A stretch of DNA of 64,000 nt from Acidobacteriota bacterium (GTDB lineage Bacteria > Acidobacteriota > Terriglobia > Acidiferrales > UBA7541): NCBI GenBank assembly GCA_003225295.1, contig QHYZ01000051.1, forward strand, positions 62,001-126,000, written 5' to 3'. A program made the translations under genes and the position numbers. Below are positions 13,108 to 31,540 of this stretch, piece by piece. Under the pieces are notes generated by a model. It had not been told where the DNA came from, ran no database searches, and was given only the letters and a program-made list of their open reading frames with translations. Position 1 is the first letter of the stretch. Each line of letters begins with the position of its first letter.

Positions 13108-13121
13108 AAGGAGCGCCTACC

Positions 13122-15614: not shown

Positions 15615-15905
15615 TTCGGTGAATTAGGCCCCAAAAGATTACGCTTTTGCGCTGGGCCTGGTGAATCGCGAAACTGGACAAGTCCCCGGTCCGCTTTCCC
15701 GCTGGAGCGCCGACCTACTGGCGTTCCTGAAAGGTGCAGCGACCACAGCGGCGGCGTAGTTGCAGGAACACATCGTCTTAACATTCCAGCCACACAAGTG
15801 TCATGGCGGTCCCGAGTCGCGGTAGGAAGCGATCTGTGTCCCTTCCTGCCGCAGCACCACCAAAAACCGGCGCACTGCTCCAAATCCTTCTTAAAGAGGT
15901 ACGAA

Positions 15906-16000
15906 ATGGATGAAGCCTCAGAAAGTCGACCCAGCGCCGACTTGTGGGACTATTTGGCGGCCGAGCGAACCTTTCTCGCCGGGGTCCGCACCGGTCGCTA
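15906..16000 (+). pseudogene. DUF202 (YidH-like) fragment
   Basis: A ribosome-site-like AAAGAGG precedes an ATG at 15906 and about 32 codons ending SADLWDYLAAERTFLAGVRT, the signature start of the DUF202/YidH membrane-protein family ('LA.ERTFLAW.RT'). After residue ~32 the frame becomes Arg/Ser-rich and none of the three expected transmembrane helices follows, so the gene is truncated. The surrounding 15615-16166 holds nothing else I can support. Confidence 0.55.
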
Positions 16001-16211
16001 TTGTCGGGGAAGAAGTCAACAGTCGTTACTACGAGTGCGCTGGGTTGCGCTGCAGAGGCTAGGAACAGCCTCAGCAGAAAATGTAAAAGGTGACGAAGGG
16101 CAAACTCGAAGTAACTCTGGATGGTGAAGCCCAAGCCGCTGATTCCGGACGTCCCAGCCTAGATACGTGTCGCTTTCTGTGAAACAATGCACTTCTCGCC
16201 AGGAGGACACT

Positions 16212-17591
16212 TTGTTTGGAAGAGTTCTTGTTCTTGCCGCCACGTTACTCGCTGCCCCTGCGGCTTTCGGCCACACCTATCCATCGCTGCCACAGAGTTT
16301 TCATGCCACGACGATTCACAGTCCGGAAGGTGCGGAGATCTTCGTGCGTTCCGGGGGAAGTGGACCTGTAGTTGTGCTGCTGCACGGATACGCGGAGAAC
16401 AGTGATTCCTGGGCACCGCTGGCGGCGGATCTGATGAAAGACCACACAGTCGTGGTTCCCGACCTTAGGGGCATCGGACGCTCGTCGAAACCAGAAACCG
16501 GTTATGACAAGAAAACCGAGGCCAAGGATATCCGGGCAGTTGTGACCGGGTTGGGGTATGACCGCACTTTCGTGGTTGCCCATGATATCGGGAACATGGT
16601 GGCCTATGCCTACGCAGCCATGTATCCAGATAAGGCAGAACGTCTGGTGGTAATGGACGCTCCGATTCCTGGGATTGAACCGTGGAGCGAGATCCTGCAA
16701 AGTCCTGGTGTCTGGCACTTCAACTTTCATGGGCCGGACGCGGAGAAACTGGTGGCAGGTAGGGAGCGCATCTATTTCGACCGCATATGGAATGACTTTA
16801 CAGGCGATCCAGGCAAGCCTGACGACGCCACCAGAAATTTCTTTGCTGCCACTTACGCCCAACCAGGTGGAATGCGGGCCGGGTTCGCTCAGTTCACCGC
16901 TTTCTCGCAAGATGCGAAGGACAACAAGGTCTTTGAACAAACGAAGCTGACTATGCCTGTGATGGCGGTAGGTGGAGAGAAGTCCTTCGGTCCCATGCAG
17001 GCTGTGATCATGCGTCATGTAGCGATCAACGTGCAGGAAGAGGTCGTCGCAGGCTCGGGACATTGGCTGATGGAAGAACGACCGGCTTACACAGTGGCGT
17101 TGATTCGTAAGTTTCTTGATGGTCCGCCGGTTGCTCATAACGTTGCAAGCACTGCTGACGGAGATGTAAACGAAGAACGACTTGCTCCCACAGAATACAA
17201 GTTCCCACAGGTAGGCAATCCGGGTACCGGAAGCTCAGGCGTCGGCGGAATCCAGACCGTTGTTCTGAAGGGCAATCCGGACCAAGCAGGCGTATACACC
17301 ATCATGCTTCGCGTGCCGGTGCATACACGCATCGCTGCGCACTCCCATCGTGACGACAGGGTTGCGACGGTAATCTCCGGCATATGGCATATCGGGTACG
17401 GCGATAAGTTTGACGAGGCGAAACTAAAAGCCCTGCCACCAGGCAGTTTCTATACAGAACCGCCATGTCGGAATCACTTCGCAGAGACTGGTGACGAACC
17501 TGTTGTCGTTCAAATCACCGGGTTCGGTCCGTCTTCCACCGAGTACGTGGATGTCACGCAGGATCCTCGTAAGCTAAGCAAGTCAAATTGA
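16212..17591 (+). CDS. Alpha/beta hydrolase (epoxide-hydrolase-like) fused to a cupin domain
   Basis: About 459 residues. I place the start at TTG 16212, which has AGGAGG five bases upstream and opens a signal peptide (VLVLAATLLAAPAAFG-H). An alternative GTG is at 16167. Residues ~30-300 are an alpha/beta hydrolase with oxyanion motif HGYAENSDSW, nucleophile-elbow Asp near 125 in VAHDIGNMVAYAYA (Asp instead of Ser, as in epoxide hydrolases and dehalogenases) and the base His near 284 in GSGHWLMEERP. Residues ~345-450 form a cupin with metal-ligand pattern H377-x-H379 (IAAHSHRDD) and a later His in PPCRNHFAETGDEP. The fusion of a secreted hydrolase with a cupin is unusual. Substrate unknown. 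Confidence 0.85.
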   Translation: MFGRVLVLAATLLAAPAAFGHTYPSLPQSFHATTIHSPEGAEIFVRSGGSGPVVVLLHGYAENSDSWAPLAADLMKDHTVVVPDLRGIGRSSKPETGYDKKTEAKDIRAVVTGLGYDRTFVVAHDIGNMVAYAYAAMYPDKAERLVVMDAPIPGIEPWSEILQSPGVWHFNFHGPDAEKLVAGRERIYFDRIWNDFTGDPGKPDDATRNFFAATYAQPGGMRAGFAQFTAFSQDAKDNKVFEQTKLTMPVMAVGGEKSFGPMQAVIMRHVAINVQEEVVAGSGHWLMEERPAYTVALIRKFLDGPPVAHNVASTADGDVNEERLAPTEYKFPQVGNPGTGSSGVGGIQTVVLKGNPDQAGVYTIMLRVPVHTRIAAHSHRDDRVATVISGIWHIGYGDKFDEAKLKALPPGSFYTEPPCRNHFAETGDEPVVVQITGFGPSSTEYVDVTQDPRKLSKSN

Positions 17592-17729
17592 ATCAGCGAC
17601 AACACGCGAACTAGAAAAGGTCGGTTGGTCTCAAGATTCGCACTGACGAACTTCCAGATTCATTAGTACCGCGTAACCGGACATCAACTGGACTCTAGTA
17701 CCCACTCTTCCGCTAGGCCGGTTGCGCGA

Positions 17730-18437
17730 TTACCAACCCAATTGGCGCATCCGCTCCAGGATGAGTCCGCTGTAGCGATTCATGCGATCGGGCCGTCGCT
17801 TCAGAGGCAACGGCAGAATTGCGGCGAGACGGGCCGACTGGTCCCGGTCGATATTCCGCGCCGATGTTCGGTAGCAGTAACGGCACGCCGCCTCCGCGCC
17901 ATAAACACCGGGGCCCCATTCGGCCACGTTGAGGTAGAGCTCCAGAATGCGCCGCTTGCCGAGGACCAATTCGGCAACCGGGACAAGCGTGAACTCGGCG
18001 CCCTTGCGGAGGATCGAGCGTCCCGTCCCGAAGAACAGGTTTTTTACGAGTTGCTGGGTAAGGGTGGACCCTCCGCGAATGCGCCGGCCTTCCATATCGT
18101 CTTCCGCTGCGATTTGGATCGCGTGCCAATCGAATCCATGATGCTGGTAAAAGCGCGCGTCTTCCGCGGCGATGACCGCGTGCTGGAAATCGGGCGAGAT
18201 TTGGATCAGCGGGACGAATTCGTACCGTTCGTGATACGGCGTGTGGTGAATCCACGCCTGCAAGCGGCGTTCCAAGTGCACCGCGGTGGTCGGTGGGTCG
18301 ATCCACCGGGCAGCCACGAGGAGCAGCGCAGCAAGCGACCAAAGAAGCGCCACTCCGATGAGAAAGCATCGAACGAAGGATCGGAGAGAGCCTTTCCTAT
18401 GCGGAGTCTTGGGGGTTGTGTCTGGATTTTCAGTCAC
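17730..18437 (-). CDS. mtgA: Monofunctional biosynthetic peptidoglycan transglycosylase
   Basis: 235 residues, the usual MtgA size. One N-terminal transmembrane helix (about 22-44) anchors a GT51 domain that polymerises lipid II into glycan strands. Conserved motifs are all present: catalytic Glu92 in AAEDARFYQHHGFDW, the RGGSTLTQQLVKNLFFG block, the KRRILELYLNVAEWGPGVYG block and a terminal ARLAAILPLP. No transpeptidase domain follows, so it is not a class A PBP. It stands alone, convergent with the hydrolase-cupin gene. Confidence 0.95.
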   Translation of the reverse strand: MTENPDTTPKTPHRKGSLRSFVRCFLIGVALLWSLAALLLVAARWIDPPTTAVHLERRLQAWIHHTPYHERYEFVPLIQISPDFQHAVIAAEDARFYQHHGFDWHAIQIAAEDDMEGRRIRGGSTLTQQLVKNLFFGTGRSILRKGAEFTLVPVAELVLGKRRILELYLNVAEWGPGVYGAEAACRYCYRTSARNIDRDQSARLAAILPLPLKRRPDRMNRYSGLILERMRQLGW

Positions 18438-18814
18438 ACTTCAGAATAATCGTTTGGGCTGAATTGACAATAGCGCTAGATTGGTCGGTTACCGGACATC
18501 TCTATGCTTTGCGGGGCCGATCCACCTGATTTCCGATTAGCGCTGCCGGCGCAACCGGTCGATGCAACGCCATCTAATCAGTTGATCCGACAGTACTTCC
18601 CCTGGAGAACCGATCTGTTTGGCTGTAATCGGTCAAAACCTAGCCAGGGTAGCGTTCCGGCTGATCTAACCTTGCGAGCGATTTTGGCTTTTGTTTTCAA
18701 TGCAAGGTGGGTTCGAGCTGAGTGTTGCGTCGACCCATTGAGACCACGGCGTTTATCAGACTTGAGCGTTCTTGACCAGTTTCAATGAATTCGTCGAAAA
18801 AATCGCGAGGGTCT
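18438..18814. other. Gene-free stretch between two minus-strand genes
   Basis: 377 bp upstream of mtgA and downstream of the hydrolase gene. A short forward ORF (18504-18788) is rich in Arg, Pro and Cys and has no ribosome site. I see no RNA gene, repeat or clear promoter. Confidence 0.4.
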
Positions 18815-19630
18815 TTACTTGGTGCAATACTGGTTCAGAAATCCGAAAACGTCTTCGGCCCAGACGTCGGATCCAAAGTAGCCAAAGCTGTGGCCGTCCC
18901 GAGGAGAGTCGCCGTAGGAAGGATAAATCTTCAGTTTGTACGTCTTGCCCACTTTGTTCATCTCTGCTGAGAGTGTGTTGCTCGGCGACAGGTCAAAGTC
19001 GTTAGCGGCTTGAAAAAAGAAGATTGGCGCTTTTGCATTTCGCACTGCGCGAGTCATGAGCGACTGTAACTCAGGTGCCTGAGCCCAACTCTGGGCTCCC
19101 CCCGCTGAATCGATCCCCGCACAATATCCTCCTCGTTCTACTCCCAGCACAGTTTCAATGCCACCAAACGAGTTTCCCGCCACTGCGATGCGATTCGGTT
19201 GCACGAAGTTCTGTTTTCGCAACCACGATAGGGCTGCTAACTGATCGTCCAGATGATCCGTCTCCAATAATCGCACCATCGTTGCGGCAGCCGCAGAGAC
19301 GCCTCCGGCTTTCTCGGCAGCCGCGATCTGATCGCCAATATACGGACCTGCGGAGGCACTCAATCCCTGCCCCCGCCGGTAAGGTCCAAGGAATACCCAT
19401 CCATGGCTTGCGAACACTGGACCGAGCGCGGCGAATGCCTCCTTACTCATCATGCCCGGCGCACTCCCGTGGTTATAAATAACTGCGGGAAAGGGTCCAG
19501 TTCCTTCGGGTTTATAGAGCACTCCGTGCAGAGTAATCTCTCCACTTGGAAATGTGACGGTTTCTGCCACCGCCAAAACTGACGGTAAAAGCAATAATGC
19601 GAACAGGGCGGAAAAATAAGGTTTAGTCAT
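18815..19630 (-). CDS. Exported dienelactone-hydrolase-like alpha/beta hydrolase
   Basis: 271 residues with a Sec signal peptide (SALFALLLLPSVLAVAE). The alpha/beta hydrolase core has the nucleophile elbow GNSFGG (Ser154), an acid in ANDFDLSP (Asp211 or 213) and His247 in RDGHSFGYFG, the expected catalytic triad order. The loop YNHGSAPGMMSKE after the third strand would form the oxyanion hole. The family includes carboxymethylenebutenolidase-like enzymes and esterases of broad range, so the natural substrate cannot be named. Likely periplasmic. Confidence 0.85.
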   Translation of the reverse strand: MTKPYFSALFALLLLPSVLAVAETVTFPSGEITLHGVLYKPEGTGPFPAVIYNHGSAPGMMSKEAFAALGPVFASHGWVFLGPYRRGQGLSASAGPYIGDQIAAAEKAGGVSAAAATMVRLLETDHLDDQLAALSWLRKQNFVQPNRIAVAGNSFGGIETVLGVERGGYCAGIDSAGGAQSWAQAPELQSLMTRAVRNAKAPIFFFQAANDFDLSPSNTLSAEMNKVGKTYKLKIYPSYGDSPRDGHSFGYFGSDVWAEDVFGFLNQYCTK

Positions 19631-19832
19631 TTTTGTATCAACCTAGCTCAGACCATCATTGCTCAAACCATCATTCATCGGTGCTTTGTGAACTTGGAAC
19701 TGATGCTCATGTTCGCTGAGGCCGACGAAATCTGCAAGCAAGCTTCCAAGGTCCCGAGTCGCCTCTCGGAAACTTGAAATCCACTTGTACGATGAGCGCG
19801 TTTAATCAAGAGTTTACGGCAATTCCTTCGAT

Positions 19833-20213
19833 TTATTTCTCACGTTTAAACCAGTCGCGAACATTCGCTAGATTTAGCCAACGCAGTAGAAGGAACCCAA
19901 GAAGGGCCCACGCTATTGCGATTGAATCGTAGAGGGCGACATTTCCGGACGGATGAATCAGGGTGACTAAATTGATGACGGAGAGCACAGAAACAACGAG
20001 GACAGAAATGCGAGCCCAATTCTGGCCCTTCCAGAAGAACCACAGGATCAAGTAACCGGCGACGGCAACCAAGAATTCCGCCCAAAGAGTCGTAGCAAAG
20101 TAGGGAGCTCTCTGCGGACTAAGAAAGCAGGTCAGGTTTAGGATTCCCATTGTGACAGTGACCGCTAACATGAAGCGAGGGCGCATAGTCCCGGAGTTTA
20201 TCCGATTCTTCAT
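19833..20213 (-). CDS. Small four-helix membrane protein
   Basis: 126 residues with about four hydrophobic segments (e.g. FMLAVTVTMGILNLTCFL; FLVAVAGYLILWFFW; ISVLVVSVLSVINLVTLI; SIAIAWALLGFLLLRWL). It ends with charged residues and looks like a genuine inner-membrane protein, but I recognise no family or conserved catalytic residue. It reads in the same direction as the DoxX gene located 170 bp upstream and may share its transcript. Confidence 0.65.
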   Translation of the reverse strand: MKNRINSGTMRPRFMLAVTVTMGILNLTCFLSPQRAPYFATTLWAEFLVAVAGYLILWFFWKGQNWARISVLVVSVLSVINLVTLIHPSGNVALYDSIAIAWALLGFLLLRWLNLANVRDWFKREK

Positions 20214-20385
20214 TCCACGCGGATAGGAACGAAACCTTTTGGCTTAGCCTTCGTGGCGGTCAGTGCCATCTGATAAATCATCTTGCCGGAGAAGTGGTTT
20301 TGGGCCCAGTTTGAGTTGCCCGGTTTGCCCGTTGCCAGAACTTAGAGGCAGTTACTTTCTAAGGTCGACGCGACCCTTGCTTGGC

Positions 20386-20766
20386 TCAAGCTGGCCGCGC
20401 CGCAAAAATGCCCGAAAAATTCTGCTTGTACCGGAAAAACACAATGAACCAAAGTACCGTCACTATAAGCGCCAGCGGCAGCCCTTTCGGGTCCATCAGC
20501 AAGTGATAGGCAAGGATGCTCACGATCACGGGCCCGAGAATCGTGAGAGCCAGCGGCACATAACGGTTGACGAGCAGCAGCACTCCACCAATGACCTGCG
20601 CCGCGCCGACCACGTACACGAAGTGAGATACGAAGAGCACGGTTAGAAATTGGCCGGCAGTTCCCGGCGGCATTTGCATCGGGAGGTACTTCAGAAACGG
20701 GTTCAGCCCAAAGACCACGAAAATCAGGCCCAGCAAAATCCGTGCAATCAACACTGCAATTTTCAT
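20386..20766 (-). CDS. DoxX-family membrane protein
   Basis: 126 residues from ATG 20766, which follows GGGAGAAG at the right distance. A TTG 18 bp further upstream is also in frame but would place that ribosome site inside the gene. Four transmembrane helices and the pattern ARILLGLIFVVFGLNPFLKY, then GAAQVIGGVLLLVNRYVPLA fit the DoxX/DoxD-like family, which has been linked to quinone or thiosulfate redox chemistry in some bacteria; no such context exists here. Cytoplasmic-membrane protein of unknown partner. Confidence 0.85.
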   Translation of the reverse strand: MKIAVLIARILLGLIFVVFGLNPFLKYLPMQMPPGTAGQFLTVLFVSHFVYVVGAAQVIGGVLLLVNRYVPLALTILGPVIVSILAYHLLMDPKGLPLALIVTVLWFIVFFRYKQNFSGIFAARPA

Positions 20767-21105
20767 TTTCGGTTCTTCTCCCAATCAATGGATGCACCAA
20801 GGGGCGGGAACGCTACGCGCCCCCGCGCCGCATTCTATGTCAAATGAACGATTATTGTGGAAGTTCGTACTAAAACTCATTTGTCCGAGAAGCGGGTTAG
20901 GACTTAGGCGATTACTTCCGGTTATGCCAACGATACACGCGGAACGTGCTGCGAGCGAACCGCCAACGGGCACGTGCTTGGTTGATTCGAACACCGCGAG
21001 CGTCTAACGTAATGAACGATGCATCTTGCTCAGCCAATTCTTCTGGCGTCGGACGGGTGGCCCAGATGCACTGCGGGGGTGCCGCACCCTTCGGTTTTAA
21101 TTGAA

Positions 21106-21834
21106 TTGACGACGAACACTCGTACGACGAGGACAGGCTTTTGTTTTCTCCGAGCTTGCGCGGTTGCGGCCTCGGTCGCGTCGGTCGCGGGCTCGACGCT
21201 TGCGCAGCAGGAGCAATCCGAGACGCAGTGGGAGCGGGAGCACGGAATTCAGCACGAGAAGAGGTTGCTCGACAACAAATTCGTGGCAGTAGAGCGGATA
21301 ACCTTCCCGCCAAACAACGAGGGCTTTGGATATGCGCGTGAGAGTGAGCCGGCGCGTATCGTCTTCCTGCGATTCCGGGCCGCTGAGCAGGATGCGACCG
21401 CATTGGGCGGTTGGCGGTTCGAAAAAGTGAGTTTCTTTTCGCGTGAGGCCGGGCGAATGATTGTGCCGCCCGGTGCCGGGGCATTTCGTCTTGTCAACAT
21501 TTACTTGAGTGACCAGCCGGAAAGGGCGCCCGTCGCCGATGACGCGGTGAAGCTGGACCCGAAGCACAACGAAGTGCTGCTGGAAAACAGCCGCATACGG
21601 GTGGTGCGGATTCATTTTGCGCCCGGAGAATCAGGGCCGATGGTGGATAAGCGGCCGCGCGTGATTATCGTGTTGACGGATTCGCATGCTACTGTGACGC
21701 TGCCGGACGGTCACAGCGAAGTGCGCGACGCGAAGGCAGGCACTGTATATTTCGGCAATGCGGGGCGGCAAGCGACGAACAATATAGGAACGACGCCGCT
21801 GGAAAATGTCGTGGTGGAGCTGAAGAGCAAGTAG
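21106..21834 (+). CDS. Exported cupin-like hypothetical protein
   Basis: About 242 residues from TTG 21106, where a Sec-like leader begins (Arg/Thr-rich n-region, then CAVAASVASVAGSTLAQQ). The frame is open back to 21019, but that part has no protein character. Two related halves of small beta domains are visible, the first including RLLDNKFVAVERITFPPN and the second VLLENSRIRVVRIHFAPGES, as in bicupins. The usual His-x-His metal ligands are not evident, so it may be a non-enzymatic cupin fold. The start assignment is uncertain because no ribosome site is visible. Confidence 0.65.
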   Translation: MTTNTRTTRTGFCFLRACAVAASVASVAGSTLAQQEQSETQWEREHGIQHEKRLLDNKFVAVERITFPPNNEGFGYARESEPARIVFLRFRAAEQDATALGGWRFEKVSFFSREAGRMIVPPGAGAFRLVNIYLSDQPERAPVADDAVKLDPKHNEVLLENSRIRVVRIHFAPGESGPMVDKRPRVIIVLTDSHATVTLPDGHSEVRDAKAGTVYFGNAGRQATNNIGTTPLENVVVELKSK

Positions 21835-22166
21835 CGCCTTATCTCAACCATCAAGCAACACGGCTCCGTGTGCCTCACGAGCAGCGTCCGCCGCCGGGCG
21901 GCTTCGTTCAAGTGGGCATCTCGTCAGGAAATCATATGGCCGGTTTTGACCTGACCACTGAGGCTTTAAGGCGATATGGGCTACTGGCCGATGGGCCGGT
22001 GCTCGGAAGGAAACGCGCGTCGCAATGTGCGAGGACTCCAACTACAGGATTCTGTAGGATTTATGGAAGGGATACCCGCCGTTTCGCATTGATTCGCAAA
22101 TGGGGAAAGGGTGAGACCAGCCACCTCATCCCCTTCACCCCAAGGGTACCTTTTTGGAGGTATCAA
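21835..22166. other. Intergenic region before the lipoprotein gene
   Basis: 332 bp. The forward frame is open but Arg/Pro-rich and without a start signal until ATG 22167. No RNA gene or repeat seen. It presumably carries the promoter of the lipoprotein gene. Confidence 0.4.
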
Positions 22167-22736
22167 ATGTGCAACTCTCAGGTCCATCGGAACTTCTGGC
22201 TCGCTTTGGCAGCAGCAGCTCTTTTGATTGTAGCGGGTTGCTCGAACAAGGCAACCAACGAACCCACGACCACCGCCAAGAAAGTCGATACAGCGAAGCC
22301 CGCGGCCACAGCAAAGCCTGCCCCTGTAGCCAACAAAGCATCGCAGCCAACCACGATGGTTACAGTCCCGAAAGGCACCGTCATCAGCGCCACGATGGGC
22401 CAAACACTAGCCACCGACAAGAACAAGGTCGGTGACACCTTCGCCGCCAGCCTCACCACGGCGATTCAGGTGGAGGGAAAGACCGTGATCCCGAAAGGTG
22501 CACACGTAACCGGCCGCATCGTCAAGGTCAAAAAGCACGAAATGAAGGTGATGCTCGCTTCGGTCGTCATCCACGGAAAGTCCTACCTGCTTGAGACCAA
22601 TTCGGTCCCGGGTTCGAAAAGCCAGGCCAAAGACACCGATAAGGCAAAGGCGAATAAGGACGTGACTCTCCTGACTGCCAAGAGTCAGCTCACGTTTAAG
22701 CTCGCGAAGTCAGTGACCATTCCGGTAATAGGATGA
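22167..22736 (+). CDS. Lipoprotein with a conserved beta domain
   Basis: 189 residues from ATG 22167, seven bases after GGAGG (22156-22160). The leader ends in the lipobox-like IVAGC-SN, so Cys near residue 24 should be lipidated. A Thr/Ala/Lys/Pro-rich linker (about 25-60) leads to a compact domain: VTVPKGTVISATMGQTLAT, KVGDTFAASLTTAIQVEGK, VIPKGAHVTGRIVKVKK. This 'pre-set scaffold, cost of changing surface properties' type of repeat is common in acidobacterial lipoproteins but has no proven function. Asp after the +1 Cys is absent (Ser), consistent with outer-membrane sorting. Confidence 0.75.
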   Translation: MCNSQVHRNFWLALAAAALLIVAGCSNKATNEPTTTAKKVDTAKPAATAKPAPVANKASQPTTMVTVPKGTVISATMGQTLATDKNKVGDTFAASLTTAIQVEGKTVIPKGAHVTGRIVKVKKHEMKVMLASVVIHGKSYLLETNSVPGSKSQAKDTDKAKANKDVTLLTAKSQLTFKLAKSVTIPVIG

Positions 22737-23084
22737 CTAGATAGGCTCTAACATCGCCGAGGCTCAGCCAGCGCAAGCTGATGCGAAGCTGGCTGGGATT
22801 CAATAAGCCAGCAAGGCCATCAAATCCTTTTTAGGGCGATTCCGGCTGTCTGGTTATGGCGGATTGAGTTCCAAGTACATTAATAAGCCGTGTCTCGGCG
22901 CTGCCGCTGCTTTCTAAGTTTTCGTTGGCTCCCTGGGCCAGCCGGTGCCAGCAAGATTTATTGGAGCGGTTGGACCGGCTGAATCCCGCGATTGGGGTGA
23001 TCTCCAAGCGAGGCCGGGAATACTTCCGGCAGTTACGAGGACAACCCGGAAGGTATTCCACATGCCCGAAAGTTCGCGAAACCG
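22737..23084. other. Degraded DNA between lipoprotein gene and recombinase remnant
   Basis: 348 bp with no intact gene. The right end probably still contains scrambled sequence of the tyrosine recombinase whose recognisable part begins near 23085. Nothing else supported. Confidence 0.4.
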
Positions 23085-23489
23085 CCCATTGGCCCCGGCC
23101 AGCCTTTTCCACTTCGACGGTAACGGCAATCAGGCATGAAGTTCCATTGGCTCCCGTGGTTGTGCGTGAACTTAAAAACCTCTATTCGCGTTCAGCAGAA
23201 CACTCTCAGACGCATTTGGTATTTGCCAGAAGCCAAGAAGGCGTTCCGCTCGCGGCGGAGTCACGCGCACGGCACGTTGTTGCATTCGCAAGGAACTCCT
23301 TTGAAAGTTGCACAGGCTCAGCTTGGGCATTCACATATGGCGACAACTTTGGAGATCTATACACACGCCAGTGGGAGTGCGCAGAGAGACGCTGTGAACC
23401 TGCTCGCAGAGCAATTGTTCCCGAATGTTCCCAAGTTGGAGAGTAGTGGAAGAACCGCAGGAAGAACCTCAACTGCTTCAGTGAGTTAG
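23085..23489 (+). pseudogene. Tyrosine recombinase (phage-type integrase) remnant
   Basis: The catalytic half of an integrase is readable in two frames: HEVPLAPVVVRELKNLYSRS (about 23133-23195) and, after a frameshift near 23240, SRRSHAHGTLLHSQGTPLKV then AQAQLGHSHMATTLEIYTHA. The second part contains the box II Arg-x-x-His region, the LGH motif and the nucleophilic Tyr in EIYTH. The N-terminal DNA-binding domain is missing. The stop codon touches the 3' end of the tRNA-Pro gene, which is where such recombinases normally reside after integration. Confidence 0.75.
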
Positions 23490-23566
23490 TGGTCGGGGCG
23501 CCCGGATTTGAACCGGGGACCTCCTGCGCCCAAGGCAGGCGCGCTACCAGGCTGCGCTACGCCCCG
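23490..23566 (-). tRNA. tRNA-Pro (anticodon TGG)
   Basis: Read on the minus strand, the acceptor stem CGGGGCG/CGCCCCG, D-stem GCGC/GCGC, anticodon stem CCTGC/GCAGG with loop CTTGGGC, a 5-base variable loop and T-stem CCCGG/CCGGG around TTCAAAT all pair. The anticodon at loop positions 34-36 is TGG, which decodes proline CCN codons. The CCA end is encoded (plus-strand TGG at 23490-23492). The 3' end abuts the integrase remnant. Confidence 0.97.
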
Positions 23567-23979
23567 ACATGAATTGCTTCATTCATTCTAAGCACTTTCC
23601 AACTTTACTGCTACTCCGATCCGTCGTGTTTGCCTCGACTGTGCCAAAATTGTGCCAATAGTTGCACTGGACCATCCGCGTGCCAGAATCAGCGCCCCAT
23701 TTCGGGCAATATACGCTCTCTGTGACCTACTCCTCGAATGGCATTTCGTATGGACGCAATCGCGTTTGGCTCAGCGATGATATCCTCAATTCCTTGCCGT
23801 ACCCATCTTGGAAGGGTAGAGTCTCGACAAACCAGATTTTTCTGACCGTTGTCTCTGCGAATAAGACAAAGAAAGTGAGTAGTACGGAGGCGGTCCATGT
23901 CTGGAGCGGATCTAGCAGCCAGATGGACTCAACTCCTTCCATGAGAATGCCGGTTCCGCGCTGAGCCCGCTAAGAACCC
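23567..23979. other. Gene-poor stretch upstream of the tRNA
   Basis: 413 bp containing the upstream region of tRNA-Pro. A forward frame at 23662-23964 (TTG start) is open for 100 codons but lacks a ribosome site and a recognisable family, so I do not call it. A short direct repeat TTGTGCCAA/CTGTGCCAA lies near 23640-23660. Confidence 0.4.
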
Positions 23980-24570
23980 ATGTCCCAACAGAAACGGCTT
24001 GCCACTGCAGCCGTCTTTTCGCATCCTAAGGCTAGGAGTCTTACCGTGAAGCGAGCCCTCTCTTGCGGAGCTTGGAGCGCTTGGGTTGTGATCGCCCTGC
24101 TGCCCACGGCAGGGCTCGCAAGCCCGCAGTCTTTGGGCGAAGTGGCGCGACGAGAGCGGGAACGTCGCGAGCTGGAGGGCAAGAAGTCCAAGAAGGTCTA
24201 CACCAATGACGACTTCCCGAGCATTGCAGCCGCCATGGAAGCGCCCAGCTCACGTGTGCTCGCTGCCGATAGCAAAGAGCCATCGGCAAAGGTCGACGAA
24301 GCGGAATTGGAGAAACAGTGGAGAAGGCGGTTTGCGGGAGCCCGTGGACGCCTGCACAAAGCTGAACTAGACGCCTGGCAGACTCGCATCAAGACGGTGT
24401 TCGTTGGCGGCGGAGGCATTTCGGGCCTGACCAGCGGAGCGGCCGTTCCCGTACAAATACAGGTGCGGGAGTTTGTGGAAACCGATGAGTTGCGCCTGGC
24501 GCGGAAGGCCCTGGACGATCTCGAAGAAGAGCTGCGTCACGCCGGTTTGCCGCCCGGTTGGGGACGCTAA
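23980..24570 (+). CDS. Exported hypothetical protein
   Basis: 196 residues from ATG 23980, or 174 from GTG 24046. The second start puts the hydrophobic leader (WSAWVVIALLPTAGLASP) closer to the N-terminus. The mature protein begins QSLGEVARRERERRELEGKK, a charged helix followed by VYTNDDFPS, a pattern I associate with small secreted proteins of acidobacteria. Its C-terminal half is helical and charged (LRLARKALDDLEEELRHAG) around a Gly-rich loop (FVGGGGISGLTSG). No enzyme motif. Function unknown. Confidence 0.7.
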   Translation: MSQQKRLATAAVFSHPKARSLTVKRALSCGAWSAWVVIALLPTAGLASPQSLGEVARRERERRELEGKKSKKVYTNDDFPSIAAAMEAPSSRVLAADSKEPSAKVDEAELEKQWRRRFAGARGRLHKAELDAWQTRIKTVFVGGGGISGLTSGAAVPVQIQVREFVETDELRLARKALDDLEEELRHAGLPPGWGR

Positions 24571-24898
24571 TCGGTCGCGAGACAAAGTTCCCATAAGGAA
24601 CAGGCTGCGGAAGCGAATTTAGCCAACACTGTCAGAGACTGACTGCATTGGCAATTTGAATTGCGAGCACCTTCGAGGTTTCGCCGTCAAGAAACTCCAT
24701 CGCAATGAACTAATCAGTTTGCGGCGATCAACGAAGTCCCCGATAGCTCCCAAAATGAAGAATGGCAAAGCAGGCCTCGTGATCGCCGCCGCTGGTGTTG
24801 GTTCCGCGTTCCTGCTGGACACCGTACCTCATTAAGCGGCCGGCTCGGTGAGCTGAACAATGCGCGCGCGAGGTGCGCGTGTGCGCAGTCCTCACAGC
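24571..24898. other. Probable decayed 5' part of the universal stress protein gene
   Basis: 328 bp between the preceding gene and the recognisable universal-stress-protein remnant. Stops occur in all frames and no start or ribosome site is visible. The sequence probably held the first part of that gene but is too altered to align by eye. Confidence 0.35.
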
Positions 24899-25470
24899 TC
24901 GCCCACACAAACGGATTCGATCTCAACATCATGCCCACACACGCTGGTCTCTTCCGCAGGACGCTGCTTGGTTCCACAGCAGCGAAGGTATTGAACGAAG
25001 CTGATTGTCCGGTATTGACCACGCAGCACGCGGAGACGATTTAAGCCAGACCGGTCGAACATCGGGAATGGGTCTGCGCCATTGGTTTGAACGCGGATTC
25101 TCCGAAGAGTTCTTCGGTTCGCCAGCCAAGCTGCGAAGGCTGTGCATGCGGATCTCACGCTCGTTGATGTGATTCCCGCAAGCGGTTCTGACCTGCCGAT
25201 TGAATTGGATTTGGAGGAGCGCCTGCAGTCGGCGAAAAAAGAGGCAGCGAGCCGGGGCATCGAGGAGTTGCAAAGCGCCGCTATTTCCCACGCACGGGTT
25301 AGCATCGCCATCGGACCGATTCGAGACATGTTGACCGAGGCCTCGCGCAGAATGCGAGCGGATTGCTGGTGATCGGAAGAAGTCCGCAGTCTGGCATGCG
25401 GGGTTGCTTGCGCGATCTCAGCTACGGAATAGCGCGTGACGCTCCATGTCCGGTGTTGAGCGTCTGGTAG
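24899..25470 (+). pseudogene. Two-domain universal stress protein (UspA-like), frameshifted
   Basis: Segments of a tandem UspA protein occur in order. The end of domain 1 is NGFDLNIMPTHAGLFRRTLL then GSTAAKVLNEADCPVLTT, stop near 25044. The start of domain 2 is VCAIGLNADSPKSSSVRQPS. Its middle is VIPASGSDLPIELDLEERLQ (25160 onward). Its end is LLVIGRSPQSGMRGCLRDLS then YGIARDAPCPVLSVW, stop at 25468-25470. The last piece carries the Gly-rich ATP-binding loop typical of Usp domains. Three frames are needed, so the gene is dead. It is the last decayed gene before the arabinose operon. Confidence 0.8.
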
Positions 25471-25511
25471 AGCGAGCGCCTGTCTCGCCGGTGCTGTCAG
25501 GTTCGAGGGCA

Positions 25512-27080
25512 CTAGTTGGCTTGCTGGGCCAAAAGTATCAACTTTGGCAGGACATCGCCCAACGGCGTGTCCTGCGGCCGGCCAAAAGAGAAATACAGCT
25601 TTTGATAGAGTGGATAGAGCGAGTTGTATACCCTTTGCGCCGCTGGTTCAGGCGAAAATATCGAGTGATCCGGGCAAATCTTATCTTGAGCTTCTTCCAC
25701 CGTCTTGAACGTCCCCGCGGCGAGAAAAGCGAAAATCGCGGAACCCAAACTGACGACACTCTTGCTCGGAACGAGAACCGGCCGCTCCAGCACATTCGCG
25801 TAGATTTGATTGAGCACGTTGTTTTTCTGCGGAATGCCACCAGCATTGATCACGCGCTTGATGTTCACACCATGCTCGGCCATGCGATCCAAGATGATCC
25901 GAGTATGGAAGGCAGTGCCTTCGATCGCCGCAAACAGTTCATCCTGGGCGGTGCTCTGCAGGTTCCAACCGAGGGTAATCCCTCGCAAATTCGGGTTTAC
26001 AAGAACCGTCCGGTCTCCGTTGTCCCAGGTCACGCGGAGAAGGCCAGTTTGTCCGGCGCGATAATTCTCGAGTCCACCACTGAGCGCCGCAACATCGGTT
26101 CCGGCTCGGACGGCAATTGCATGGAAGATGTCTCCCACGGCCGAGAGACCGGCTTCAATTCCAGTGCGGTGGGGATGCACGCTCCCCTGCACGACTCCAC
26201 AGACACCAGGAACCAGGTTTACCGACGGCGTGATGCCAATGATGCAAGTCGAAGTGCCGATGACATTCACCATGTCCTCGGTGCGGCAGCCTGCGCCTAT
26301 GGCATCCCAATGAGCATCAAACGCGCCCACGGGTATGGGAGTACCCGCCTTCAAGCCGAGCTCTTCGGCCCAGAAGGGAGAGAGACTGCCAGCAATGTGC
26401 TCCGAGGTTACATATTCGCCCTGCAGTTTCTCTCGCACTCCTGCAAACAATGGGTCGACGCTGACAAGGAACTCTTCTGAGGGCAGGCCACCAAGCTGCG
26501 GATTCCACAGCCACTTATGACCCATTGCGCAAACGCTGCGCTTTACTTCCCGCGGCTCGGTAATGCCGCAGAGAGTAGCGGCGATCATGTCGCAGTGTTC
26601 GAACGCGGACATGAATTCCGGGCGCTTCGCAGGGTTATGTCGCAGCCAATGCAACAGCTTTGAGAATCCCCACTCGGACGAATACACGCCACCGCACCAC
26701 TGGATGGCTTGCAATTCTTCACGATGTGCCGCTTCCGTGATTTCTGCTGCTTCAGTTTTGGCGCGGTGATCGCACCAGAGGTAGTATTCACCGAGCGGAT
26801 GTAGATTTTTCCCAACCGGAATCACAGAGGAGCCGGTGGTATCGACCGCCATCGCTTGCACTTGATCGCCGGAGACACGGGCCTTCTGTAAGGCTTCACG
26901 GGTGGCGATGGCCAAAGCGCGCATGTGATCGTCATGCGATTGCGTTGCATATTCAGGATCTTCGCGCTTGCGATGGAGCGGGTATTCCGCAAGCGCCGTC
27001 GCCAGTAGTCCGCGCTCGCTATCCACGAGGGAAACGCGAACGTTGAGGGTGCCAAAGTCCACTCCCGCCACAATTGCCAT
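25512..27080 (-). CDS. araB: Ribulokinase
   Basis: 522 residues from ATG 27080; the frame is open upstream but the FGGY-kinase fold starts at MAIVAGVDFGTLNVRVSLVD. It phosphorylates L-ribulose with ATP to L-ribulose 5-phosphate. Landmarks shared with AraB are VDTTGSSVIPVG, YLWCDHRAKTEAAEI, GGVYSSEWGFSKLLHWL, MGHKWLWNPQLGGLPSE, GAFDAHWDAIGAG, the ATP-site VIGTSTC and the late INAGGIPQKNNVLNQIYA. It is the last gene of the minus-strand operon that begins with araD, 34 bp after the isomerase. Other FGGY pentulose kinases are possible, but the araD partner and surrounding arabinosidases support ribulokinase. Confidence 0.92.
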   Translation of the reverse strand: MAIVAGVDFGTLNVRVSLVDSERGLLATALAEYPLHRKREDPEYATQSHDDHMRALAIATREALQKARVSGDQVQAMAVDTTGSSVIPVGKNLHPLGEYYLWCDHRAKTEAAEITEAAHREELQAIQWCGGVYSSEWGFSKLLHWLRHNPAKRPEFMSAFEHCDMIAATLCGITEPREVKRSVCAMGHKWLWNPQLGGLPSEEFLVSVDPLFAGVREKLQGEYVTSEHIAGSLSPFWAEELGLKAGTPIPVGAFDAHWDAIGAGCRTEDMVNVIGTSTCIIGITPSVNLVPGVCGVVQGSVHPHRTGIEAGLSAVGDIFHAIAVRAGTDVAALSGGLENYRAGQTGLLRVTWDNGDRTVLVNPNLRGITLGWNLQSTAQDELFAAIEGTAFHTRIILDRMAEHGVNIKRVINAGGIPQKNNVLNQIYANVLERPVLVPSKSVVSLGSAIFAFLAAGTFKTVEEAQDKICPDHSIFSPEPAAQRVYNSLYPLYQKLYFSFGRPQDTPLGDVLPKLILLAQQAN

Positions 27081-27114
27081 GGGATTAGTTATCCGCTCCG
27101 AACGAAATAAACCG

Positions 27115-28533
27115 TTACTCAGTGTGTGCGTACATGTCCCAGCCCAGATAGCGCGTGGTTGCTTCGTGCACAATCGGGGCGACGCTCGAAAAGTTCGCAG
27201 CGACGTGGTGTTCAAATCCTTTCTCGCAAATGTAGTGAAGAAGTCCTTGCAGTCCAGGGATCTCCACGACGCCAGCGCCGCCGAACGTCTCTAGGGGATC
27301 ATCCGTAAATCTTCCGCTGCCGGTATAACCACGGATTCTTCCCTGGACATCGTCGGTGGAAAATCGGGCAAAGCTCATGGCGCCGGACTTGACGCGTCCA
27401 ACACACGTGCCAAAGGTATTTTCCTTGCCTACAGTACCTGCGATGATTTCCTGGAAATCCATCTTCACGTCTTTGAAGAAATGTTTCGGCAAGTTGCTGC
27501 AATGAAAACACACGGCCTTGTTAGGATCGTTTCCGTAGTTGTTATTCCAGTCGAGCAGCGCGCTGGGCGTTTCCGAAGCCAGTTGTAAAGCGTGCATCCC
27601 GAGCACGCCGCAAACGTCAACTTCGCAGGCGCTTGAAAGCAGCGAATCGCTCATCATGCTCATGACTGTGCATGGAACGACTCCCAGGTTTTCTTCCAGC
27701 GAAGTCCAGCACTGAACCGCGCTGATTTGCACCTGTGCGCTTTTCATCCAGTCGTCGACAACCGCTCCGAGCTTGGCCATTTTGATGAGCGCCGCGTGGG
27801 GGATGTCGGTGGTCGTCACATAGGATTGTATGGACTTCAACTTTAGCAAAACGTGCTCATCGGTATCCTTCATGCGGCTGATGCGCCCCAGCACTTCGCT
27901 CAGGTCCAGCGTCTCTACGGAAATCCCGCTCGACTCCAGCAGTTTCTCGCTATAACGGACCGTATTAAACGCCGTCGGTCGTGCACCTAGCGCACCAATG
28001 CGCAAATTGCGCAGTCCCTTTACCACACGGCATACGCCCGCAAACCATTCCAGATCTTTCTTGAACTCCGGGGAATCTGGCGTCATGGTGTGCAAGGTTG
28101 TCAATGAATATGGAATTCCGAACTGGCGGAGGTTGTTACAGGCGGACATTTTTCCGCAGAAACTGTCACGCCGGTGCGTGATAGCCATTTTGCCAGGCGT
28201 ATCCGGCGTGGCTTGCACCAGCACCGGCACGTTCAATCTTGAAAGCCGAAGTGTGTCCGCGACGGCGCGCTCATCTCCGAAATTCGGCAGCGTGACGATG
28301 ACACCATCGATTAAATCGGCTTTGGATTTGAACAACTCCGCGCAGCGCTTTGCTTCTTCGTACGTTTCCACAGCCCCATGCTTGCTCTGCTCCGACCCGA
28401 GCACGACGACATCTACGCCTGCATTTTGCAATACGTGAATCATCTCTTCCCGGCCGGTCTTCGCCAAGTGATCGGGGAAAAATCCCCGATTCCCCACGAT
28501 CACGCCCATCGTCATCTTCCGCATGTTAGCCAT
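27115..28533 (-). CDS. L-fucose/L-arabinose isomerase-family ketol-isomerase (likely the L-arabinose isomerase of the operon)
   Basis: 472 residues from ATG 28533 (MANMRKMTMGVIVGNRGFFP). It has the layout of the fucose/arabinose isomerase superfamily: an N-terminal substrate domain with VVVLGSEQSKHGAVETYEEA, a second domain with LPNFGDERAVADTLRLS, and an acidic metal-site region SSACEVDVCGVLGMHALQL. The conserved FHCSNLPKHFF follows near the C-terminus. It does not read like classical E. coli AraA. Being placed between the symporter and araB, with araD in the same operon, it is the only candidate for L-arabinose to L-ribulose conversion. Catalytic Mn-ligand Glu/Asp residues are inferred, not proved. 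Confidence 0.82.
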   Translation of the reverse strand: MANMRKMTMGVIVGNRGFFPDHLAKTGREEMIHVLQNAGVDVVVLGSEQSKHGAVETYEEAKRCAELFKSKADLIDGVIVTLPNFGDERAVADTLRLSRLNVPVLVQATPDTPGKMAITHRRDSFCGKMSACNNLRQFGIPYSLTTLHTMTPDSPEFKKDLEWFAGVCRVVKGLRNLRIGALGARPTAFNTVRYSEKLLESSGISVETLDLSEVLGRISRMKDTDEHVLLKLKSIQSYVTTTDIPHAALIKMAKLGAVVDDWMKSAQVQISAVQCWTSLEENLGVVPCTVMSMMSDSLLSSACEVDVCGVLGMHALQLASETPSALLDWNNNYGNDPNKAVCFHCSNLPKHFFKDVKMDFQEIIAGTVGKENTFGTCVGRVKSGAMSFARFSTDDVQGRIRGYTGSGRFTDDPLETFGGAGVVEIPGLQGLLHYICEKGFEHHVAANFSSVAPIVHEATTRYLGWDMYAHTE

Positions 28534-28556
28534 GGTCGGTTCCGTCGCTTTCTCCT

Positions 28557-28778
28557 TCAGAGGCGGCCTTTTCCCGGCGCAAAATAAATGCTGTAAACAC
28601 CTCCGACCACCGCCAGTATCCCGCCCCACCAGACGTTCGCGTGCAAGCCATACAGCACAACCTGCTCTGCTGGCGGATGGAACAGTTCATACACACCTGC
28701 GCCGAAAATCAGCAGGCCATTGACGAGAAGTGACACTCCGATAAAAAACCATATAGAAAGCGAACCGCCAGTTTTCAT
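28557..28778 (-). CDS. 73-residue membrane protein in the arabinose operon
   Basis: Two hydrophobic segments (IWFFIGVSLLVNGLLIFGAG and GGILAVVGGVYSIYFAP) joined by a short loop YELFHPPAEQVVLYGLHANV. It starts 6 bp after the symporter stop and ends 23 bp before the isomerase, so it is embedded in the operon and translated with it. The ordered composition and tight spacing argue for a real gene. Similar small proteins accompany SSS symporter genes in some acidobacteria as I recall, but no role is known. It could be a symporter accessory subunit. Confidence 0.75.
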   Translation of the reverse strand: MKTGGSLSIWFFIGVSLLVNGLLIFGAGVYELFHPPAEQVVLYGLHANVWWGGILAVVGGVYSIYFAPGKGRL

Positions 28779-28784
28779 AGCGCC

Positions 28785-30488
28785 TCACCAAAAGACTACG
28801 TTAACCACCAAGAAGAGAACGGCAACCACTGAGGCCCAGAACCACGGCCGGTGGAACACCGTGACATACGACTCGGATGGAATATCCGTCACGCCGTAAA
28901 CCAAGCCCTTCAGTTCGGAGTCCGGTTTGGGCTTGGTGAGCATGCTCACAGCGATGGTCACCAACACGCAGACGACCCAGGACCACAGCGCCCGGTACAT
29001 GTTTTCCGCCATATCGCGCGCGTGCGCGGAAAGCGCGACGTAGCGCAACGCGGAGGGATCGACCTTGACCCATGCCCACATTCCGATTGAGGATAAGGTC
29101 CCGGCCAACAATCCCAGGAATCCGCCTGCGGGTGTCGCACGCTTCCACAACATTCCCAAAATGACTGTTCCAAATAGTGGTGCGATAAAAAAGCTGAAGA
29201 GCGCCTGAACATAGTCCATGATGCTTTTGAAATCCATTACTAGATAGGCCGTGCCCACACTGATAATCACTCCGACGATTGTGGACCAGCGGCCCATACT
29301 GACATAATGCTGATCGCTGCCGTCTTTGTTTATCAACGCACGGTAAATGTCGTATGTCCACACCGTAGTAAACGCACTCACATTGCCAGCCATCCCGGAC
29401 ATGAACCCCGCAATCAGGGCGGTAATTCCAAGTCCAAGCAAGCCCGGGCCGCAATATCGTGCCAGCATGAGGGGTAGGACTTCGTTGTAACTATGGCCGC
29501 CGGTCGCGAGGGCCTGCGCTTCGCCGGTCAGCTTCATGGGTAAAACCGCGAGAGCCAGCAAACCGGGGAGAATCACGATGAAGGGAACCATCATTTTAAA
29601 CCCTGCTCCGATAATCGGGGCCATTTTCGCGGCGCGAAGATCTTTAGCGGATAGCACTCGCTGCACCACCAAAAAGTCCGTGGTCCAATAACCGAAGGAA
29701 ATGATCGCTCCCAATCCGAAAACGATTCCCGTCCAGTGAATGCCCATCGGGTTATCGTCGAATCTGCCCAGCGTGCTCCAAAGGTGCGTGTACTCTGCGG
29801 AAGCGTTTGTCGCGATCCGTGCTTTTAATGCAGCCCATCCACCGGCATCGGCAAGTCCGAGTATGGGAATCAGCAGTGCCCCAGCCCAAATCAGAATAAA
29901 CTGCAAGACTTCGTTAAAAATTGCCGAGCGCAACCCGCCGAGCGAAACATAGATGGCAACTGTCAAGGAGGAAACCCAAATGCTGAAGTTGATGTTCCAC
30001 CCGAGAATAATCTTGAGGACCAGCGCCATCGAATACATGTTGATTCCACTCATCAGCACCGTCATCAGCGCGAAGCTGATGGACGATAGTGCGCGGCTCC
30101 CTTCTCCAAACCGAAGCTTCAAATAGCCCGGCACGGAATGCGTTTTAGAAATGTAGTAGAAGGGCATCATCACAAGGGCGAGGAACAGCATCGCAGGGAT
30201 TGCTCCGATCCAATACCAGTGAGCCGCCAGAATGCCGTACTGATATGCCGCGCCGGCCCAACCCATCAATTCCAGCGAGCCGAGATTGGCGGAAAGGAAA
30301 CTGAGCCCCGCGATCCAGGCAGTCATTTCTCTTCCGGCCATGAAAAAATCTTCGCCCGTATTCGACCGCTCCTTCAAGTAGAAGCCGATAGCAAGCACCA
30401 AAGCGAAATAGAAAACAATGATGACCAGATCAACTGTGGATAGACGTACAAGACGTGAAGCATCCGCCGAAGCAAATAGCAGCGTCAT
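28785..30488 (-). CDS. Sodium:solute symporter (SSS/SGLT family), probable L-arabinose importer
   Basis: 567 residues with about 14 transmembrane helices. The SSS signature region is present early: FYFALVLAIGFYLKERSNTG, then EDFFMAGREMTAWIAGLSFL and SANLGSLELMGWAGAAYQYG. Later segments include GINMYSMALVLKIILGWNIN, YVSLGGLRSAIFNEVLQF, the Na-site-like GLGITALIAGFMSGMAGNVS and FTTVWTYDIYRALI. It should couple Na+ entry to sugar uptake across the cytoplasmic membrane. Its ATG overlaps the araD stop by 4 bp, so it is translationally coupled to araD. Substrate specificity for arabinose is inferred from the operon only. Confidence 0.92.
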   Translation of the reverse strand: MTLLFASADASRLVRLSTVDLVIIVFYFALVLAIGFYLKERSNTGEDFFMAGREMTAWIAGLSFLSANLGSLELMGWAGAAYQYGILAAHWYWIGAIPAMLFLALVMMPFYYISKTHSVPGYLKLRFGEGSRALSSISFALMTVLMSGINMYSMALVLKIILGWNINFSIWVSSLTVAIYVSLGGLRSAIFNEVLQFILIWAGALLIPILGLADAGGWAALKARIATNASAEYTHLWSTLGRFDDNPMGIHWTGIVFGLGAIISFGYWTTDFLVVQRVLSAKDLRAAKMAPIIGAGFKMMVPFIVILPGLLALAVLPMKLTGEAQALATGGHSYNEVLPLMLARYCGPGLLGLGITALIAGFMSGMAGNVSAFTTVWTYDIYRALINKDGSDQHYVSMGRWSTIVGVIISVGTAYLVMDFKSIMDYVQALFSFFIAPLFGTVILGMLWKRATPAGGFLGLLAGTLSSIGMWAWVKVDPSALRYVALSAHARDMAENMYRALWSWVVCVLVTIAVSMLTKPKPDSELKGLVYGVTDIPSESYVTVFHRPWFWASVVAVLFLVVNVVFW

Positions 30489-31189
30489 TCCTTTGACCTC
30501 GCTTGCCCATAATAAGCTTCTTTGCCGTGCTTCCTCAAAAAATGCCGATCGTGGAGCGTCTTACTGACGGAGCTGGCGCGCGGATTGATCCCAATCGTGA
30601 AGTAAGCCATACGAGCGACAGCTTCGAGCATCCAGGCGTTTTCCGCTGCCTTCCGCGGGTCTGCGCCCCAGGCAAAAGGACCATGGTTGGCCACCAACAC
30701 TGCCGGGACAGCCTGGGGGTCAATTTGCTTGAACGCGCGAATAATCGCCACTCCTGTATTTGCCTCGTACTCACCCTTGATTTCGTCATCCGCCATGGAA
30801 TCGGTTAGTGGAATGGGGCCGTGGAAATAATCAGCGTGCGTAGTACCGAAACACGGAATCGGTTTGCGGGCCTGGGCCCAGGCCGTGGCGTATTCCGAGT
30901 GAGTGTGGGCAATCCCGCCGATGGAAGGGAAAGCGCGGTAGAGAGCAGCATGTGTGGGAAGATCCGAAGACGGCCGCAGGGTGCCTTGGACGACTTTGCC
31001 TTGCAGGTCGGTCACGACGAGATGCTCCGGCTTCATCGCCTCGTAGGGAACACCACTAGGCTTAATGACGATCAAGCCATCATCGCGGGCGATGCCGCTC
31101 GCGTTGCCAAAGGTCGAAAGCACTAATTCTCTTCGGACAAGATCCAGGTTTGCTTCCAACACTTGTTCTCGTAGCGCTGCTAACAGCAT
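30485..31189 (-). CDS. araD: L-ribulose-5-phosphate 4-epimerase
   Basis: 234 residues from ATG 31189, preceded by GAGGAGGG at proper spacing; E. coli AraD has 231. It is a class II aldolase/adducin-fold zinc enzyme converting L-ribulose 5-phosphate to D-xylulose 5-phosphate. Phosphate-binding GNASGI and KPSG loops are present. Zn ligands are His95 and His97 in GIAHTHSEYATAWAQA and His169 in VANHGPFAWG, and the catalytic-site Asp76 lies in RPSSDLPTHAALYRAF. It is the first gene of the arabinose operon. A LacI-type operator lies about 190 bp upstream, in the shared region with the divergent GH127 gene. Confidence 0.95.
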   Translation of the reverse strand: MLLAALREQVLEANLDLVRRELVLSTFGNASGIARDDGLIVIKPSGVPYEAMKPEHLVVTDLQGKVVQGTLRPSSDLPTHAALYRAFPSIGGIAHTHSEYATAWAQARKPIPCFGTTHADYFHGPIPLTDSMADDEIKGEYEANTGVAIIRAFKQIDPQAVPAVLVANHGPFAWGADPRKAAENAWMLEAVARMAYFTIGINPRASSVSKTLHDRHFLRKHGKEAYYGQARSKE

Positions 31190-31379
31190 CCGCCCGCGAC
31201 CCTCCTCGTAATAGGTATCGTTAGCGTAACCTGCAGTTTGGCGGGACCCGCGCCTTTCGCAGTGAAACAAGCGGTGATAATCATTGCCGGGAAAAAGGCA
31301 GCAATGAAGGCGGGATTCCTGGTCATGAATAGTCCTTGTGAAAGCATGAGTGCACCAAAATTCATGCCGGATGATTTAT

Positions 31380-31393
31380 GGTAAGCGTTTACC
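31380..31393. promoter_or_regulatory. LacI-type operator upstream of araD operon
   Basis: GGTAAGCGTTTACC, an imperfect palindrome with central CG, as recognised by LacI/GalR-family repressors whose hinge helices open a central CpG. It lies 190 bp upstream of araD and 240 bp upstream of the divergent GH127 gene. Its sequence is identical to the site at 53860. Confidence 0.75.
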
Positions 31394-31526
31394 ACCTAAT
31401 AGTCATCCTTGCAAGGAGTTTCGTCCCCTAAACCGAGATCGCTTCGTCTTGCCGGTGTTGGTTGACGTACGCGAACAGTTGCAGTCAGAGTCGCAGCTGA
31501 GCACCTTGCAATCCGCAGGGTTGCAT

Positions 31527-31540
31527 GGTAAACGTTTACC
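31527..31540. promoter_or_regulatory. LacI-type operator upstream of GH127 gene
   Basis: GGTAAACGTTTACC, a perfect 14-bp palindrome, 93 bp before the GH127 start codon and 134 bp from the araD-side operator. The two sites 147 bp apart (about 14 helical turns) could allow DNA looping. Confidence 0.78.

Follow-up and report, generated by a model that had tools for sequence, protein, structure and literature searches.

The gene for tRNA-Pro(TGG) studied here (positions 23490..23566, minus strand, located with ARAGORN) appears to be an integration hot spot that mobile elements would have entered from both sides. The boundary on its 3' side is real and ordinary. What is unusual lies 5' of the gene, where the same tRNA is targeted by elements that bring the front half of the gene and a promoter. 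We give this two-sided explanation as a whole a probability of about 0.78.

The window is the entire stretch of 64,000 nucleotides analyzed, which equals C129:62001-126000 of the genome called G000 here, a draft assembly of 8.13 Mb in 385 contigs from a soil acidobacterium, with 67 hits to the phage integrase family; other G numbers denote relatives. Two types of integrase are distinguished, and elements with either type target the tRNA: IntA is the tyrosine recombinase type of the 3'-side elements, and IntB is a second integrase family, belonging to the 5'-side elements.

The IntA remnant and the 3'-side island

The sequence-only reading had described a frameshifted tyrosine recombinase abutting the 3' end of the tRNA, and this description is confirmed. 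The open reading frame at 23136-23489 ends with a TAG stop codon (23487-23489) immediately beside the TGG, the complement of CCA, that begins at 23490. Taken alone, this frame matches the PF00589 profile only at positions 134-169, with 25.9 bits against a cut-off of 27.1. Its nature is better seen by comparison with G034, in which an IntA relative stands at the same place by tRNA-Pro and has a whole catalytic domain (PF00589, 102 bits). Positions 23072-23263 match residues 156-216 of this relative (56%) and positions 23262-23456, in another frame, match residues 241-305 (89%), with an E value of 3e-44 for both pieces; approximately 24 residues between the pieces and the N-terminal half of the protein are missing. 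Given the two frames and the missing parts of this alignment, the IntA remnant (23072..23484, plus strand; 85% over query 240-307) has undergone a frameshift, an internal deletion, and truncation. In relatives the IntA gene ends a few bases earlier, and it is because of the frameshift that the stop codon in the window lies exactly at the tRNA. G022 had been considered as an example of an intact IntA and was dropped, its IntA tail passing into other DNA within 300 bases.

An island had also been proposed to extend leftwards from the tRNA, with a direct repeat of the tRNA 3' end at its other limit, and such a repeat was indeed found. Inside the 64,000-nt window, a pattern search for the tRNA 3' end (29 nt, up to three mismatches; 0.00 occurrences expected by chance) returned one occurrence and no second copy. 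Across G000, the first 26 bases recur at C129:50931 (two mismatches) and C134:882 (three mismatches), while a reversed control pattern of these 26 bases gave zero matches. The former site (C129:50931-50976) is a decayed copy of the tRNA-Pro 3' half. It forms a direct repeat with the tRNA, lies 34.56 kb to the left of it and 11 kb to the left of the window, and corresponds to 47 nt of tRNA sequence, CCA through anticodon loop, with 87% identity. Its counterpart at the tRNA, the near attachment site, comprises the 47 nt of the 3' half at 23490..23536 (plus strand). Half-copies of the tRNA-Pro 3' part are likewise present in G010 (two), G017, G027, G006, G007, G002, and other genomes, and they end at about the same place as the C129 copy.

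The DNA beyond the C129 copy resembles the arms found in G006, G007, G010, G017, and on contig C134 of G000 (78-84% over 76-85 nt), and it also matches the arm of G024 over 53 nt. In G006 and G007, an IntA tail stands opposite this arm, on the other side of the half-copy. Since the arm at C129:50931 is the arm of these IntA half-copies, the far site pairs with the IntA type.

A comparison of relatives at tRNA-Pro, as the earlier reading had proposed, points the same way. G027 is collinear with G000 between -70406 and -35210 (counted from the 3' end of the tRNA), that is over approximately 35 kb and with 49-94% protein identity, so that synteny stops near the C129 copy. Only 7.6 kb separate the tRNA of G027 from a half-copy of its own, next to which an IntA-like tail is found, and the intervening DNA differs from that of G000. 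The same left chromosome is thus followed by other DNA before the tRNA. The far 3'-half copy, the IntA arm, and this alternative occupancy in G027 together argue for an old 3'-side island of 34.56 kb (C129:50977-85489), bounded by the tRNA and the 3'-half copy, to which positions 1..23071 of the window belong. As in other tRNA islands of the 3' type, the tRNA and a 3' fragment are in direct orientation with the fragment on the 3' side, an integrase is located at the tRNA end (though IntA is a pseudogene only), and the island is replaced at the same site in a relative. Excision of the island is not expected, because its integrase is broken. The island may also be composite, arising from one old element or from a stack of them. 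The G+C content of 0.53-0.58 is flat over the boundary and neither supports nor weakens the island reading.

The least unlikely alternative is that the C129 copy stems from an unrelated insertion and that the 34.56 kb do not constitute one IntA-type island. The modest identity of the copy (only 87%) and the occurrence of other copies and tandem-like junctions in G000:C134, G010, and G027 speak for such an origin; however, the arm beside the C129 copy belongs to IntA elements, and the remnant at the tRNA is of that type too; we therefore regard this alternative as improbable.

The cargo of the left island includes ChrB, an AcrB-type pump with its adaptor, a DUF1259 protein, and a transporter. 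In G000 this cluster (C129:53440-67222) is located 3' of tRNA-Pro, and in G017:C41 (L048) it occurs inverted on the 5' side; part of it adjoins IntB in G032 (L084).

The 5' flank and its counterparts in relatives

At 23567..23704 (minus strand), the window contains a tRNA promoter (TAGAAT, 23590-23585) and an IntB 3' tail facing the tRNA. This stretch of 137 nt, read together with the relatives, is the probable remnant of a 5'-side element. The flank at 23569-23704 resembles the sequence between IntB and tRNA-Pro in G029, G022, G032, G018, G003, and G035, as well as the flank in G021. Blastn with the first 20 nt of the flank omitted yielded identities of 79-90%, the best match being G021 (90%, E 2e-32), with G029 at 81%; the 5' flank also matches an attP-like junction in G032 (L084) at 83% over 175 nt. 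When the best tRNA-Pro locus from each of 30 of the 61 genomes (L012-L041) was clustered by single linkage, 15 of the 30 5' flanks fell into the cluster of the window and 6 of the 30 3' flanks into the IntA cluster. A direct repeat of TGTGCCA (23639..23658), recognized by eye, is a candidate arm-type site of IntB.

The window holds no credible match to the IntB protein. Displaced tRNA-Pro 5' halves were likewise absent from G000 in a search with a 38-nt pattern (up to three mismatches) and from a looser scan of 60 kb to the right of the tRNA plus 20 kb of C350. The right side of the window thus lacks the displaced 5' fragment at the far end that marks a 5'-type tRNA island, and for this reason we class its 5' side as a remnant only.

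Relatives contain the full arrangement. In G003, the IntB gene (389 aa; PF00589, 54.7 bits) is located approximately 100 bp upstream of tRNA-Pro, and a perfect 42-nt 5' half of tRNA-Pro, oriented like the resident gene, is found 93 kb to the right of the latter, which provides both the displaced 5' fragment and the integrase on the 5' side of the tRNA. The displaced half is preceded by an arm ("...gttggagtcg") and followed by a promoter with TTTAGAAT, and rph comes 11.6 kb further; the resident and the displaced promoter share this sequence at an equal distance from the tRNA. Joining the G003 flanks by script restored an intact tRNA-Pro(TGG), as judged by ARAGORN. Beside IntB, the element encodes VirD4-, VirB11-, VirB4-, VirB9-, and VirB6-like proteins and a RepB primase, and these gene matches supply the integrase, the coupling protein, and the T4SS ATPases of an ICE. 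G035 has the same layout as G003, with the displaced 5' half on contig C104 together with rph, and nth 13 kb further. In G032, two junctions show the order arm, 5' half, promoter, IntB tail. Judged from these arrangements, the conjugative elements that carry IntB in the relatives supply the tRNA 5' half and its promoter. A 5' fragment in G054 was dropped as evidence because it sits at a contig end. A further observation in G035 (L078:4394-17533) is that homologous genes for a coupling protein, an ATPase, and a primase occur on both sides of tRNA-Pro, with a different integrase on the left.

One could instead suppose that only the 3' side has been invaded, in which case the tRNA would have kept its native promoter in the 5' flank, and the resemblance of this flank to IntB tails would stem from shared chromosomal ancestry. 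The lack of both a 5'-half copy and an IntB reading frame in G000 agrees with this proposal, yet the likeness continues past the promoter into the end of the IntB gene in G018, G022, and G029. Moreover, the flank in G009 and G010, likely the native one and recognizable by nth, falls outside the cluster of the window flank, and the junctions in G032 place the same flank next to different DNA and a tRNA fragment, with the tRNA 3' half missing. We consider invasion of the 3' side alone to be quite improbable. Still less credible, to the point of being nearly negligible, is a recombination-prone chromosomal zone whose tRNA fragments come from errors or assembly breaks: the assemblies are drafts and the G054 fragment lies at a contig end, but the fragments end in the anticodon stem-loop, are flanked on either side by long stretches of non-tRNA DNA, and are accompanied by arms and integrases that recur.

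The sequence-only reading had assigned the arabinan locus, to the right of the tRNA, to the chromosomal side, an assignment contradicted by the IntB tail on the 5' flank and by the relatives. In G029:C331, the tRNA and the IntB tail lead to the equivalent of G000 +40571 within 428 bases, and the DNA from +214 to +40571 is absent; G008 keeps G000 +41412 onwards approximately 3.3 kb to the right of its own tRNA. It follows that the arabinan locus lies inside an insertion of 40.36 kb, which occupies 23705..64000 of the window and reaches to about C129:126061. The ends of this insertion show chance-sized matches only, and no repeat marks its end. The native right neighbors nth, rdgB, and rph adjoin tRNA-Pro in G009 and G010; in G000, rph is on C350, and C129 runs for 60 kb to the right of the tRNA without nth-rdgB-rph. 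As a marker of the right side, nth-rdgB-rph is usable for distances and is on another contig in G000 and many other drafts. Where tRNA and rph share a contig, they are separated by 1.5 kb in G009 and G010, 3.5 kb in G016, 4.2 kb in G023, 4.8 kb in G019, 6.6 kb in G007, 9.1 kb in G027, 30 kb in G034, 70 kb in G011, 105 kb in G003, and 115 kb in G031; in the other genomes they are on different contigs or one is missing. Parts of the arabinan block also occur in G028 on two contigs (C55 and C57; L207, L208), in changed order and each with a tRNA-Pro 3' half-copy.

Side preference of the two integrase families

Matches to IntB with an E value of 1e-20 or better are present in 14 of 36 genomes of the genus, some at only 28-34% identity. 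Of 20 fetched loci, 10 belong to the close IntB clade (at least 60% identity) and have a full tRNA nearby, and IntB is on its 5' side in nine and on its 3' side in one; the 5'-side tRNAs are Pro, Arg-TCT, and Ala-TGC. In a tree of 20 integrases, in which some branches are long and the deeper joins unsure, nine IntB rows are grouped (100/100), eight of them on the 5' side, and all six IntA-type rows are on the 3' side.

The GTDB collection extends this sample to 79 loci that encode IntB relatives, all titled Acidobacteriota or groups within; these loci are not independent of each other and include genomes already used. A downstream tRNA on the same strand, i.e. with IntB on the 5' side, occurs at 42 of the 79 loci, 27 times as Pro-TGG, and a tRNA on the opposite strand (3' side) at 23. 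The remaining 14 have no full tRNA: three end too soon, and the other 11 comprise six with a 5' half, three with a 3' half, one that is unclear, and one with neither. The half-tRNAs at these loci end in the stem-loop. Among 10 IntA-type loci run through ARAGORN, nine have a tRNA, with the integrase always on its 3' side (9/9), and this distribution differs from the 42 of 65 on the 5' side in the IntB family (Fisher p 0.00025). A rough yardstick for 42/65 is Islander, which counts islands rather than integrases and for which a 5' fragment is given in 159 of 3919 islands (PMC4383910). Front-side invasion of tRNAs, rarely reported in bacteria, looks common in this group. The side of IntB is not fixed, as the 23 loci on the 3' side demonstrate; one of these integrases is 87% identical to the IntB of G003. 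This 87% identical integrase is encoded in G029 (L104:2560-2960) on the 3' side of tRNA-Ala, and the other flank of this tRNA resembles an IntB-type promoter.

Fragments of tRNA-Arg(TCT) were tallied with queries in eight genomes chosen mostly for their IntB relatives (G000, G023, G005, G035, G007, G024, G033, and G003). A manual count of 50 partial rows gave 30 5'-type and 20 3'-type fragments, or 24 and 16, respectively, at 88% identity or more; G000 alone accounted for 21 and 10. In 13 G000 contigs with 5' halves that were inspected, the clear ones end in or by the anticodon stem-loop and have non-tRNA DNA on both sides. Rows read by eye yielded six clear 5' and three clear 3' fragments in eight further genomes of the genus (at least 85%) and fragments of neither type in 12 genomes from other families of the class. 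The roughly twenty tRNA-Arg 5' halves of G000, spread over many contigs (L187-L199) and cut at the anticodon stem-loop, outnumber the 3' halves. A second doubly used tRNA occurs in G005:C236 (L107, L174), where tRNA-Arg(TCT) is flanked 3' by an IntA-type gene and 5' by an IntB gene.

The two halves of tRNA-Pro(TGG) also differ in variability. Across 30 loci, the 5' 41 nt occur in five variants (26 loci being identical) and the 36 nt of the 3' end in 10. The differences in the 3' part are mostly paired T-stem changes between species, with very little variation in the 5' half. The displaced 3' half in G017 is of the G000 type and the resident 3' half differs. The variation of the 3' half fits replacement by incoming elements.

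Proposed mechanism and biological meaning

The anticodon stem-loop of the window's tRNA (23525..23538), at which displaced 3' halves end and 5' halves begin, is the putative crossover region for both types. IntA-type elements would recombine in this stem-loop and carry the tRNA 3' half, and would thus settle on the 3' side. One old element of this kind, or a stack, could have produced the 34.56 kb island on the left, which no longer has a working integrase. IntB-type elements may use the same stem-loop, carrying the 5' half, a tRNA promoter, and IntB, and would thereby settle on the 5' side; insertion there would displace the native 5' half and its promoter far away. Of such an element, the window would retain only the promoter and the IntB tail. 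The tRNA of the window is probably a chimera, to which a 3'-side element contributed the 3' half and a 5'-side element the promoter together with the 5' half. The repeat, the arms, the flanks, the alternative occupancy, and the displaced 5' halves of relatives are observed; we infer that strands are exchanged in the stem-loop, in what order the events took place, and that the arabinan locus arrived by way of a 5'-side element.

Several features recall known systems. As in the islands described by Islander, a tRNA and a displaced fragment are in direct orientation, with an integrase at the tRNA and an anticodon-type site; unlike the islands as presented in that account, one family here acts mostly from the 5' side and one tRNA is shared by 3'- and 5'-side elements (PMC4383910). 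Archaeal pTN3-like integrases are described as using the tRNA 5' half and parting the tRNA from its own promoter, and the use of the 5' half is characterized in a review as seldom met in bacteria (PMC8371274, PMC5495485). IntB shares both properties with the pTN3-like integrases; in contrast to the pTN3 integrase gene, which according to these sources is split by integration, the IntB gene is whole and ends approximately 100 bp before the tRNA, being intact beside the tRNA in G003 and G035. The element of G003, with VirD4, VirB11, VirB4, VirB9, VirB6, and the RepB primase beside IntB, is similar to ICEs of the T4SS type; what differs is that in G035 one tRNA lies between two homologous gene blocks whose integrases are not the same. 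Tycheposons, which are tRNA-linked integrative elements that reshuffle islands, are in that respect like the present elements. Provision of tRNA function from an element with its own promoter is also a feature of tRNA-dependent lysogeny, in which, as outlined there, a whole phage tRNA replaces a broken one, (PMC10865867), whereas in the present case one half is exchanged and the gene reconstituted.

Integration on the 5' side is already known and rare; what is new is a family that mostly does so and one tRNA that serves both types. A literature search covering titles and the openings of abstracts returned no report describing islands on the 5' side of tRNAs in Acidobacteriota or a single tRNA exploited from its two sides. 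More generally, we are inclined to think, with rather less assurance than for the tRNA studied here, that a recombinase clade of Acidobacteriota enters anticodon stem-loops either way and mostly replaces the 5' half and promoter, that essential tRNAs, with 3'-side elements at the same genes, become two-sided patchworks, and that cargo such as the arabinan and metal-efflux genes crosses from one side to the other.

Islands are usually sought 3' of tRNA genes, since an insertion there leaves the tRNA with its own promoter. If a 5'-side family is common, an essential tRNA would be run from the promoter of a mobile element, and surveys of islands in soil acidobacteria that look only downstream of tRNAs would miss large conjugative elements together with their cargo.
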